The notes below the pieces were generated by a model. That model searched no databases. It worked only from the letters and a program-made list of their open reading frames with translations, and had not been told where the DNA came from. From Bartonella sp. MM73XJBT.G (GTDB lineage: Bacteria > Pseudomonadota > Alphaproteobacteria > Rhizobiales > Rhizobiaceae): DNA of 64,000 bases. Position 1 is the stretch's first letter, and each line of letters opens with the position of its first letter. Shown here piece by piece: positions 45,760 to 51,841 of the stretch. Position numbers and translations under genes: made by a program. The DNA lies in assembly GCF_028618435.1 (NCBI RefSeq), contig NZ_JAQISW010000007.1, positions 1 through 64,000 on the forward strand, read 5' to 3'.

Positions 45760-46698
45760 ATGAAAAAAAGTGCAAGTTTAGATGCGATGATTGTGCTGCT
45801 GAAAGCAGTTGCAGAAGTGAGTCATTTACGTATTCTCAGACTCTTAAATCATGAAGATTTAACAATTCCTGATTTTATTTTTATTCTTAATCAGTCGCAA
45901 GCGTGTATATTGCGACATTTGTGTTTATTGTACGAAGCACGATTGATTGGGCGTTATCAGAAGGAAGGTTGTCTTTATTTTAAGTTTTGTCATGATTTTT
46001 GGGGTAAAGACATTGTGATGAGCATTCTTTCATCTTTGCCAAAGCATGATATGTTGTTAGCGCATGATTTAGAGCGTTTGAAGGATATCAAAAAGCAGCG
46101 TCAAAAAACGAGGAAGAAACATTTCTTACAAAATACATCGCAATGGGATGTCTTGCGATCCTCTTATGTGGCAGATCAGAGTATTGAAAATGCTTTACTT
46201 AAAATCGTGGGTGATAAGCCATTTCAGACGATGCTCAATATTGGAATGGGGGGAGCTTCTCTCTTAAAATTGTTTTCTGATCTTTATACGCATGCGGTTG
46301 AAGTTGTGCTTAATCGTGATATTTTGCATTTGCCTGTTGGAGAGACAACTTTTGATTTAGTCATTCTTCATTGGGTTTTACATTTTCTTGAAAACCCTGA
46401 AATGGTTCTTCATAAGATATCAGATGTTTTACGTCCTCATGGGCGTTTATTGATTGTGGATTTTTGTTATCATAAAGTTGAATCTTCACATCCTGATCAA
46501 GAGCGGATACACCTTGGATTTTCGGATTCACAAATAGAACAATGGCTTAAAAATGCGGAACTTGTTTTAGAGCAAACGATTTGTCTTACTCCTATACAAA
46601 GTAAAAACAGTGAAGTGTGTGGGGTAACAATTTGGCTTGCTCGTGATCCGCGTTTATTGGTTGATGATATTAAAGATAAACAAATCAATTTTGCATAA
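45760..46698 (+). CDS. ArsR-type regulator fused to a SAM-methyltransferase-like domain
   Basis: The N-terminal 90 residues form an ArsR winged helix (LKAVAEVSHLRILRLLNHED, then FILNQSQACILRHLCLLYEA). The rest resembles a class I methyltransferase: ILHLPVGETTFDLVILHWVL, then LRPHGRLLIVDF, with LGFSDSQIEQWLKNA. In related Rhizobiales this fusion lies before metF and responds to SAM. Here the SAM-binding loop is weak (TMLNIGMGGASLLKLF instead of D-x-G-x-G-x-G) and a stretch between it and the ILHLP strand is shortened, so methyl transfer may be lost. GGAAAGG lies upstream. No metF follows. Confidence 0.8.
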   Translation: MKKSASLDAMIVLLKAVAEVSHLRILRLLNHEDLTIPDFIFILNQSQACILRHLCLLYEARLIGRYQKEGCLYFKFCHDFWGKDIVMSILSSLPKHDMLLAHDLERLKDIKKQRQKTRKKHFLQNTSQWDVLRSSYVADQSIENALLKIVGDKPFQTMLNIGMGGASLLKLFSDLYTHAVEVVLNRDILHLPVGETTFDLVILHWVLHFLENPEMVLHKISDVLRPHGRLLIVDFCYHKVESSHPDQERIHLGFSDSQIEQWLKNAELVLEQTICLTPIQSKNSEVCGVTIWLARDPRLLVDDIKDKQINFA

Positions 46699-48437
46699 AC
46701 CGTGTTTGTTAATATGCTTTATTCTCTATTTTTCTCAAGGAATAGCGCAGTGATAAAACTTTATTCAATTATTGAGAAGTTATTATTTTTTGTATTATGT
46801 CTTTATATAAGGTATTGGTATTTCATAGCGGCGTGGAGGCCTGTGTAATTCTTATAGAGTAAGGTTGTAAGAATTATCATTTCAGGTGTCTTGATATCGT
46901 GTTATTAATTCATCAATAAATTGATTTTAAAAGATGAATGATCTTTTAAAACTCCAATAAGGTCTTTCAATAAAAGAATATTTTTTATTTTAAATCTTTA
47001 ATTTTTACAATCAAAAGGCATCTGTTTTTCTGTTACAAAGAGAGGTTTTTGTGTCAATAAAACCGTTTGAAAAAGGCATAAACCTTTCATACATATTGCT
47101 CAATATGAGAGCAGCTACAATATAATATGGTGGTGGTTTGTATCTTCATAAATGTCAAAGATGGTGCTTTTTAATTTTATCTTACAAGCATTCATATATA
47201 TGCTTTGTGTTATATTTATAAAAATTAGATTGGTAGTGAGCTATGGGTAATCCGTGTTTGAAAGCAATAAGAAAAAGCATCATATCACATGAAATCTTTG
47301 TATTTCTTGATCATGAAAAATCATGAAGGTTATTAAATAAGTCCATTTTTCTTGCCAAAAGTGAATTTCTTTTTTTCTTATGCGGGCATCTTACGGTACA
47401 GTTTATGAATGATATAGCGTAAAATTCATGGAGCGGTGTCTTTTTTCGTTTAAATAAAAATTGTAAGCCTGCATCATCATTTTATTTTCAGTTTTCAATA
47501 TTGTGTCATCCTTGCTTTAAAATGGCTCATCGGAGATATTTTGACTCTTTTTTTATTACTTTTATTCCTATGCCAATCTATTTATGATATTCTGAGAGTG
47601 TGGCTGTGATTGATTCAATATTGGAAGATTTAAAATAGGGGGTGCTTATTAAGATTGGGAACGGCCATTTAATATAAAAATGATCAATAATTATTAAAAT
47701 CAATATCTTGATATGTGAAAAGAGTAGAGAGATTTTTGAATACAAAAATTGTTTTATTGATCATTTTGTAAGGCAGTTTAAGTGGTAAAGATTAAAAGGT
47801 CTGTATTTATCGTTTTTGTTACGATAGCATAGAGGGGGTGGTTGGCTATTGTAAGGTAGTTTATTGTTATTGAGAATGATCATGAGGCATGATTCGAAAT
47901 AAATGCCTTTAGAATTCTCATTTTTTGTAAGCTGTTTCAATTCTCTTCATTGATGCTAGCAGTCAAGAGATTTGATAGTATTTTTTTAAGGGCTATTTTC
48001 AGAAACTTTTATGAAGATAGATAAGATTTTTTCTCTCTAATTTATTGTTTTATTTTAAATAATTTATCTGTTCTTTTGAACAGATATTTCTACTGTTATT
48101 GTATCAGACTTAAAGACGACGTTTTTCTTTTGTGGTGATCGCTGTTGGACAAGTGATTCTCCTGATTCTATTTTTTATAGGATGAATATATACAGATTAC
48201 TTGTTTTTTAATGATGATCACTAAAGTTGTGAAAGAAATTATTATAAAAATCATGATGGTTGTAGATTCTGATTAATATTTTGGAGAATAAAATTGCTTC
48301 AAATTGGGTCATTTTAAATTTTTTTTGCCTAAATTACACCATTTTTAAACAATTTATAATTCTTTTTTGTTTTTTTGCGTAGAAGATGATAAGAATTTCT
48401 TGTTGTTTAAAGCATTTTATTCCATAGCAAGAATATT
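46699..48437. other. Long gene-poor region
   Basis: About 1.7 kb without a supported gene in any frame. It contains dispersed repeat copy 6 (47600-47715) and ends at the sRNA candidate. Scattered T-rich tracts give no clear terminators. Confidence 0.5.
47600..47715. repeat. Dispersed ~120-bp repeat, copy 6 (diverged)
   Basis: Landmarks: GTGGCTGTGATTGATTCAAT, GGAAGATTTAAAATAGG, CATTTAATATAAAAATGATC and AATTATTAAAATCAATAT. The most diverged copy; assignment is by order of blocks. Confidence 0.5.
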
Positions 48438-48556
48438 GCATCGGCTATCTTAGTGGTCGATGCGAGAAGACGATCGGGGAACCTCCTCCCCCCCCCCCCG
48501 CGTGGATCCCCTAGATCGTCTGGCCTGACTGAGGATTTCCTCAGTCAGGTTTTTTT
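48438..48556 (+). ncRNA. Candidate small RNA with CCTCCT/poly-C loop
   Basis: Three stems in order: GCATCG/CGATGC (48438-48463); a long stem AGACGATC+GGGGA (48468-48480) with TCCCC+GATCGTCT (48507-48521, 2-nt bulge); then a perfect terminator. The loop of the middle stem (48481-48506) carries CCTCCT followed by twelve C, an anti-Shine-Dalgarno motif. A weak promoter TTGTTG-N17-CATAGC lies at 48400-48428. The layout recalls the alpha-r14-type sRNAs of Rhizobiales and CCUCCUCCC-motif RNAs of Rhodobacter; that link is from memory, not a search. Confidence 0.75.
48524..48556 (+). terminator. Terminator of the CCTCCT sRNA
   Basis: CCTGACTGAGG (48524-48534), 4-nt loop, CCTCAGTCAGG (48539-48549), then T7. 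Confidence 0.95.
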
Positions 48557-48776
48557 ATAAATTACTTTTAGGGCTTGGTAAGGTGTTTTCTGGGGCCTTA
48601 AAAGATGTAAAATTTATTATTACGTAGCATGTAGTCCTAGGGGGGAGATAAGAGTTCGTTGAGTGGTTCGTGTTATCGTGTTCATTTGCAATGATGAGAG
48701 TTTTTCTTTATTGAAAAATCGTTGAATGCTATAAAGAGAAACTGTGTTTGATTCTGTGGTCTTTAGGTAAGAGATA

Positions 48777-49169
48777 ATGGGATTTTCCTCCAGTCGTATT
48801 GTTTTTATTTTATTTATATTTCTTCTTTTTGGCGTGTGCATTTTTGCTTCTCGCAGTGTTGTGGTTCATAAGTTTCTTTCTAGCTACCTATTCTCTTCCT
48901 CCTCCTCCTCTTCTTCTCAGCAGGTTGAGGTAACAGAGGCGTTATTGCTAGAGAGATGGGCGATGGCTTTTCCAGATATTATTGAGCGTCTTTCTAAGAT
49001 GAGTCCTCAGCAGCAAGAGCTGTTTATTGAGCAAGTGCGTCGCAATGCGGTTTCATTTGCTTCGGAGAGTGGTCAGAGTCGTGAAGAAGCCCACAAGTTT
49101 GGTGAAACTGTTGCTATGGCTCTCTCAAAAGCGATGTCTCGTCCTTCCATTGCAAATGCTTATTTTTAA
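48777..49169 (+). CDS. Hypothetical small secreted or membrane protein, 130 residues
   Basis: The N-terminus is hydrophobic (IVFILFIFLLFGVCIFASRS), a signal anchor. It is followed by a run of eight Ser encoded by an imperfect TCC/TCT tract (48893-48919) and a helical, Gln/Glu-rich domain (FPDIIERLSKMSPQQQELFI) ending SRPSIANAYF. The SD is weak. No family recognised. The Ser tract could vary in length by slippage in steps of three without breaking the frame. Confidence 0.5.
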   Translation: MGFSSSRIVFILFIFLLFGVCIFASRSVVVHKFLSSYLFSSSSSSSSQQVEVTEALLLERWAMAFPDIIERLSKMSPQQQELFIEQVRRNAVSFASESGQSREEAHKFGETVAMALSKAMSRPSIANAYF

Positions 49170-51187: not shown

Positions 51188-51575
51188 GTCAGTCGGCTGG
51201 GCAGCCGCGCTTGTCCAATGCTGAAAAGCGGCAGGTGAGGAAAGTCCGGGCTCCATGGAAAGACGGTGCCGGGTAACACCCGGCGGGGGTGACCCTAGGG
51301 AAAGTGCCACAGAAAGTAAACCGCCTATTTTTATAGGTAAGGGTGAAAGGGTGGAGTAAGAGCCCACCGCGCATTCAGTAATGAATGTGGCAAGGTAAAC
51401 CCCACCGGGAGCAAGACCAAATAGAAATGACGTGCAAAATTTAATTGCAGCCGATTTCCGGGCGAGTCATTCGGGTAGGTTGCACGAGGCGGGTGGTAAC
51501 ATCCGTCCCAGATGAATGGTTGCCATGTAAAGTGTGAGCTTTACTATACAGAACCCGGCTTATAGGCCGACTGAT
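51188..51575 (+). ncRNA. rnpB: RNase P RNA (rnpB)
   Basis: The bacterial class A RNase P RNA is recognised by the closing helix P1 (CAGTCGGC at 51190 with GCCGACTG at 51566), the conserved GAGGAAAGTCCGGGCTCC block (CR-I) near 51238, the CCACAGAAAGTAAACCGCC region near 51308, GGTAAGGGTGAAAGGGTG near 51337, and AGATGAATGGTTGCCATGT near 51511 towards the end. About 388 nt, typical. It cuts the 5' leaders of tRNA precursors. The ends are estimated from P1. Confidence 0.95.
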
Positions 51576-51841
51576 ATTTCATGATGATACGCGATATTTT
51601 ATACGTTCAATGACGTATGGGCTTTTATAAAGTCTGTATTTGAAATAGGCACTTGAATAAAGAGTATTTTTAAAAATTATAACATTTCTTTAAGTATAAT
51701 ACACTAGGATATGTCTTGGGATAACTTTAGCTTTTTTCGTTCATAGTCATTAATATGAAAGTTAAGGGTTGGGTTATTCTTATATCGGTTGTTATGAGAG
51801 AGCTGTTGATTTGAAACAGCATAACTTCAAGACGGATTATT

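Follow-up and report, generated by a model that had tools for sequence, protein, structure and literature searches.

A run of twelve cytosines in the 64,000-nt stretch of Bartonella sp. MM73XJBT.G DNA analyzed here (herein referred to as the window) raises the question of whether it belongs to a gene and what a homopolymer of this kind would do there. The tract, C12 (48488-48499, plus strand), is the sole plus-strand C run longer than 6 in the window, where G runs reach 8, and one of eight places in the 2.23-Mb genome with a C run of at least 9 on either strand. The 3' end of another gene in the same genome, on contig C7, also carries a C tract (C10, L188:993-1002), directly followed by a terminator-like hairpin. 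Conserved sequence, structure, and gene order make it very likely that C12 lies within a real RNA gene of Bartonella. The anatomy of this RNA makes a regulatory role likely, and such a role would most likely involve pairing with G-rich mRNA stretches.

The preliminary description of this locus proposed a small RNA (sRNA) with three hairpins, a middle loop displaying CCTCCT and twelve C, and a terminator at its end; the fold prediction agrees with it on each of these points. Positions 48430-48558 of the plus strand are predicted to form three hairpins, the middle loop containing C12 and the terminator coming last. The minimum free energy (MFE) of the segment 48390-48570 is -70.4 kcal/mol, compared with a shuffle mean of -40.6 (SD 3.8, n = 200; z = -7.8), and the segment 48430-48558 has an MFE of -62.6 (z = -6.9 against shuffles). 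The fold of the reverse strand also beats its shuffles, less strongly (z = -3.9). All features of the RNA lie on the plus strand. Hairpin 1 (48436-48465) has 13 bp and is the most variable of the stems. Hairpin 2 (48468-48521) bears the C-rich loop, and hairpin 3 (48522-48556) is an intrinsic terminator with its stem at 48522-48551 and T's up to 48556, the T run being interrupted in some relatives. The stem of hairpin 2 contains 13 bp with a 2-nt bulge, beyond which an A/A mismatch precedes two C-G pairs, and displays ACCTCCT, C12, and GCGTGGA. The 13-bp stem and 26-nt loop (48481-48506) described earlier hold when both C-G pairs are assigned to the loop, and 20 nt are free if these bases are paired. 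The loop contains an anti-Shine-Dalgarno-like CCTCCT (48482-48487), and C12 is followed by GCGTGGATCCC (48500-48510).

Related loci were found throughout the analyzed Bartonella genomes. By blastn, the RNA locus was detected in 57 of 71 genomes, including the one under study, with one place per genome. A covariance model herein referred to as R1 matched all of the 14 other genomes (2.2-2.9 Mb; best E-values from 1.7e-9 to 5.7e-5) and gave a weak second match in two of them. These 14 genomes, which, judging by their size, presumably represent bee-gut and other early-branching Bartonella lineages, are referred to below as the other clade. The RNA is also present in B. bacilliformis Ver097. Among genome contigs, 36 stretches matched the core of the loop, 34 of which belong to Bartonella and the remaining two to metagenome bins. 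The segment GCGTGGATCCC is nearly invariant among the 57 loci (mean conservation 1.0 after rounding), L052 and L054 being the deviating ones, and C5-GCGTGG occurs in 57/57.

The stems covary across species, which supports the earlier claim of a structured sRNA gene, and the loss of pairing in relatives that had been named as the refuting outcome did not occur. In an alignment of 48 of the 57 blastn sequences, 98.4% of the cells pair. Cells changed on both sides number 67, whereas shuffles give 24.1 and slid partners no more than 14. Two of the five measures used are weak: 11 of 35 pairs have both sides changed, which 10 of 500 shuffles also attain, and the 38 further pair types are not unusual, being equalled in 80 of 500 shuffles. 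Most of the covariation falls in hairpin 1, where 4 of 9 consensus pairs are changed on both sides, and in the terminator. Hairpin 2, with 2 of 15 consensus pairs changed on both sides and 99.2% of cells paired, says less about pairing because its sequence is nearly invariant.

A putative promoter precedes the RNA on the plus strand (48399-48427). It comprises a -35-like CTTGTT (48399-48404), a 17-nt spacer, and a -10-like CCATAG (48422-48427), as read from the sequence; this site was absent from the output of a consensus promoter scan, which gave another site at 48333-48360. With this promoter, the RNA should start near 48433, about 6 nt past the -10-like box, and extend for approximately 124 nt (48433-48556). 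The pattern TTCTTG-N18-24-CATA was found in 53 of the 57 loci. In the other clade, TTG-N16-26-CATA was found in 14/14 genomes and CTTG in 13/14. Mean column conservation across 48392-48431 is 0.92. An inverted repeat, AAGAA-N-TTCTT (48391-48402), overlaps the -35-like box, occurs in 48 of the 57 loci, and is possibly an operator.

The preliminary description was also right in calling the region gene-poor over about 2 kb, since no ORF of at least 60 aa lies between 46699 and 48619. The neighboring genes, all on the plus strand, serve as landmarks of gene order. Upstream lies a gene for a protein with a methyltransferase domain (45760-46698; Pfam Methyltransf_11, 40.2 bits) and an ArsR-type HTH, for which HTH_5 scores 21.5 bits, just under the Pfam cut-off of 22. 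Downstream are a 130-aa ORF without a Pfam match (orf130, 48777-49169) and rnpB, encoding RNase P RNA (51189-51578; Rfam RF00010, 321 bits). Two further observations concern the downstream side: GGGGGGAG, at approximately 48640-48647 just 3' of the sRNA, complements part of the loop, and G runs of at least 5 occur within 250 nt downstream of the sRNA in 27 of the 57 loci, which are related to each other, and in 58 of 510 bins of the window.

An orf130-like match was found at 53 of the 57 loci (none at L021, L047, L051, and L056) and is oriented differently in a few of them. Of the 27 loci in this set that span about 5 kb, 26 show rnpB. Long stretches were available from 8 of the 14 other-clade genomes; orf130 and rnpB lie downstream in 8/8 and the ArsR/methyltransferase gene upstream in 7/8. 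Another other-clade genome, G062, has a short contig that carries the ArsR/methyltransferase gene. This gene order supports the orthology of the sRNA loci in both clades. Two basal loci were available at full length, and in both of them metF (Pfam MTHFR) sits directly upstream of the sRNA, with the ArsR/methyltransferase gene on its other side (L121:6327-7268 and L120:7766-8683). Of 41 genomes searched, the one under study among them, 39 gave a metF match, whereas the genome under study gave none at E 1e-40. Given this absence, the gene-poor stretch upstream of the sRNA (46699-48399) may mark the site of a lost metF.

Outside the genus, no convincing homologues were found in 297 genomes of the family searched with strict filters. 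R1 matched 10 of these genomes, 5 of which are Bartonella, and the loci in the other 5 look like terminator hairpins by eye. A second model, R2, the automatic structure of which has 18 pairs and omits hairpin 1, matched 13 genomes, including the same 5 Bartonella. Of the 8 non-Bartonella genomes, 7 gave alignments, all lacking the C-rich middle loop, while L168 is represented by table rows only. The non-Bartonella locus L163 has a GGGA...TCCC stem and no C run. Among 30 loci inspected downstream of metF, from 40 metF matches, none had a C-rich three-hairpin RNA by eye or by a simple script, and C5 was seen in several. The RNA thus looks genus-specific within the genomes sampled.

The reading that we favor with moderate confidence is a genus-wide trans-acting sRNA of about 124 nt, the homopolymeric C seed of which pairs with G-rich mRNA leaders and mainly lowers their translation. 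The sRNA would be transcribed independently, with hairpin 1 and the terminator flanking the stable middle hairpin. The C-rich loop with its GC end would act as the seed, and pairing with G-rich leaders, in many cases on or close to the ribosome-binding site, would mainly reduce translation. Drift in tract length would be largely buffered, because every register of the C run offers the same seed, and would at most tune affinity. Searches for candidate targets gave no support. The pattern GCGGGGG-N2-14-RTG occurs 62 times and its reversed control 46 times, with overlapping rows included in the counts, and so is not clearly enriched; among the window genes, 14 rows of G-run leaders were listed, none convincing by eye. 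Genome G007, which carries the RNA, is taken by us to be B. bacilliformis strain KC583. When its loop was scored against 126 gene starts, the fractions were 0.17 for nuoF, 0.10 for gcvT, and 0.73 for ftsH, nothing special.

An alternative role for the same loop is general inhibition of translation, with CCUCCU acting as an anti-Shine-Dalgarno sequence, a mechanism put forward for ar14 and RNAs related to it. The loop is complementary to Shine-Dalgarno sequences, as claimed earlier, CCTCCT being present in 42 of the 57 loci, and the predicted mean duplex energy to GGAGG lies between -7.3 and -10.9 kcal/mol, depending on the length class. However, CCTCCT is absent from 15 of the 57 loci and from 14/14 of the other clade, which leaves this claim partly supported; what is constant in all clades compared is a C run followed by GC. 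The predicted duplex to G6 is also stronger, at -16.3 to -17.6 kcal/mol. We consider general inhibition through CCUCCU unlikely.

The length of the tract differs among the loci. The longest C run in the 57 loci is 6 (3 loci), 7 (1), 8 (1), 9 (2), 10 (16), 11 (16), 12 (12), 13 (5), or 14 (1). The run is C9-C14 in 52 loci, and the five runs shorter than 9 are broken by T inside a C/T stretch. In the other clade, the alignment of which took in 13 of the 14 sequences, the run is C6 in 13 of 14 genomes and C7 in one. We infer growth from C6-C7 to C9-C14 in the lineage of the window rather than shrinkage. On a quick 57-row tree built without the tract, the length of the longest run changes at least 30 times; this tree includes non-coding DNA columns and has its long branches flagged, and the states are the longest C runs, the five interrupted tracts being scored by their longest piece. 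Close pairs also differ, for example, L014 (C11) and L016 (C9), or L024 (C11) and L031 (C9). Differences were found as well within B. tribocorum (C635 with C12, L103 with C10), B. queenslandensis (BqUM with C12, AUST/NH15 with C11), and the subspecies of B. vinsonii (C9, C10, and C11), all of which the collection counts as separate species. The C tract at the 3' end of another gene (L188), which served as a rough 3' UTR control, is C5-C10 in the 12 loci given, of 51 genomes matched. The sRNA run exceeds it in 12/12, a comparison in which the control is biased toward shorter runs elsewhere because it was picked for being long in the genome of the window. The preliminary description had suggested that the length may vary within a population; the variation found here lies between species (C9-C14 and C6-C7, with at least 30 changes), each represented by one genome.

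Such variability could mean that the tract slips within populations and that the strength of regulation depends on tract length, making the seed a phase-variable rheostat. The changes counted on the tree and the differing close pairs are consistent with this, as is the report that the length of the G-repeat in the target sets the outcome of RepG regulation in Helicobacter pylori (PMC8295292). However, the variation seen is between species only, with one genome per species, and some of the one-base differences could be assembly errors. The predicted energies also argue against it. In 19 of the 57 natural variants, which have like stems and C9-C13, the MFE of the hairpin is -19.3 to -21.1 kcal/mol, and for duplexes with G6 or G8 the predicted mean energy does not change between C9 and C14. 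The fold thus predicts no switching on and off by length, and graded effects at most. When the whole RNA is folded, most length classes leave an average of 77-89% of the pyrimidine stretch unpaired, but L053 (53%) and L055 (47%) fall below this, a point against the favored seed reading. We regard a length-dependent rheostat as improbable. The fuller version of this idea, in which the seed has grown from about C6 to C9-C14 in one branch and undergoes slippage as cells grow, which would give a population RNAs of graded strength against G-rich leaders, is doubtful to the same degree. Coding potential was also considered. Plus-strand frames of at least 20 aa cross it in 45 of the 57 loci with any start codon and in 25 with ATG, and minus-strand frames in 7; run lengths of 9-14 shift the frame between species, which makes a conserved peptide unlikely.

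A protein-binding RNA, the C-rich loop of which titrates an RNA-binding protein instead of pairing with mRNAs, would account for a tract that tolerates changes in length and keeps its composition, but would need another reason for the invariant GCGTGG; we give it little credence. That the sRNA is the leftover 3' end of a metF transcript after the loss of metF, rather than a free sRNA, is suggested by the two basal loci and the missing metF match in the genome of the window, but is highly improbable given a promoter-like block in both clades and a structure and loop that are still conserved in a genome without metF.

If the favored reading of a G-pairing C seed is right, these data point to a predicted regulatory RNA common to the genus with a testable pairing site, easily located in other strains by its landmarks, the ArsR/methyltransferase gene and rnpB. 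The homopolymer loop appears unusual, and phase variation is a good question to ask of it: does the same reading in every register make slippage free of cost, or is slippage a dial? The C6-C7 and C9-C14 runs in two branches of one genus offer natural alleles to compare in this respect.

A scan of the locus against Rfam gave no match at the curated score. Membership in the ar14 family (RF02344), which the preliminary description had proposed to check, was not borne out: the window gives a full-length match of 24 bits, far below the gathering threshold of 58.8, with a C-rich loop in hairpin 2 only, and 9 other loci (4 from the 57 and 5 from the other 14) gave no ar14 match at E-values up to 10. 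The ar14 family is characterized by an Hfq-independent transcript of about 123 nt. Each of its three hairpins carries CCUCCUCCC in unpaired form (PMC10746234). The RNAs ar14, NfeR1, and SmelA075 resemble the Bartonella RNA in length (about 123 nt, compared with about 124 nt predicted here), in having three hairpins and a CCUCC-type loop, and in their origin from relatives within Rhizobiales (PMC10746234; PMC3927594). The difference is that all three ar14 loops carry CCUCCUCCC, whereas in Bartonella one loop is C-rich and the C run replaces the motif. The best matches to anti-hemB, NsiR1, and Hrs13 reached 30.3, 28.4, and 24.6 bits, all below the gathering scores; they fall on the loop and terminator or on the terminator side and were taken as chance likeness.

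Among the RNAs of Bartonella itself, the Brt RNAs are likewise genus-specific. They are described as 194-203 nt long and as absent from B. bacilliformis; B. henselae has nine, every one of them located upstream of an HTH gene (PMC5387305). The RNA analyzed here does not belong with them, having a predicted length of about 124 nt, its own terminator, a downstream ORF without a Pfam match, and a copy in B. bacilliformis Ver097. A study of B. bacilliformis reported 57 intergenic sRNAs, including five that are widespread in Bartonella, BbsR9 among them (PMC7717549). BbsR9, which corresponds to BB092 in strain KC583, is reported to be conserved in several Bartonella species, to have a predicted sigma-70 promoter and a terminator, and to bind nuoF, gcvT, and ftsH (PMC7717549). 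Judging by this conservation, promoter, and terminator, the RNA may be BbsR9 or another of those 57 intergenic sRNAs; the fractions given above for nuoF, gcvT, and ftsH in G007 lend no support to identity with BbsR9 and do not refute it, because several regions of BbsR9 reportedly take part in pairing. BbsR14, BB019, BB113, and BB125-2 are said to hold anti-Shine-Dalgarno sequences (PMC7717549), whereas the G007 copy of the RNA has no CCTCCT on either strand. Within the literature searched, mostly titles and the openings of abstracts, no published description of a Bartonella C-run RNA was found.

The claim of novelty for phase-variable regulatory RNAs was too wide, since NikS (HPnc4160) of H. 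pylori has been called a phase-variable sRNA (PMC8295292), a variable T-repeat in its promoter region changing its expression (PMC8035401). NikS shares with the Bartonella RNA the link between an sRNA and a variable homopolymer; the T-repeat lies in the promoter region, whereas the C tract lies inside the RNA. The same literature, again mostly titles and abstract openings, yielded no sRNA whose own presumed pairing site contains a homopolymer that slips.

The closest parallels in anatomy are RepG and GsrN. The C/U-rich loop of H. pylori RepG pairs with a G-repeat in an mRNA leader (PMC8295292), and both RNAs have a stable hairpin with such a loop, pairing with G runs being presumed in Bartonella. 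The loop is part of the terminator in RepG, whereas it belongs to a separate hairpin here; the variable homopolymer lies in the RepG target and here in the sRNA, and the organisms are unrelated, so that no homology is claimed. GsrN of Caulobacter is, like the Bartonella RNA, an alphaproteobacterial sRNA with a conserved C-rich loop, which in GsrN pairs with a G-tract in the katG leader (PMC5869019) and here presumably finds similar partners. It differs in that its C-rich loop is located at the 5' end and its blastn hits are limited to Caulobacteraceae, and the portion of that report consulted mentions no long C homopolymer (PMC5869019). The constant stem, C run, and GC of the Bartonella RNA resemble the seed loops of RepG and GsrN in anatomy, and on this ground trans-acting pairing with G-rich leaders is predicted in Bartonella as well.
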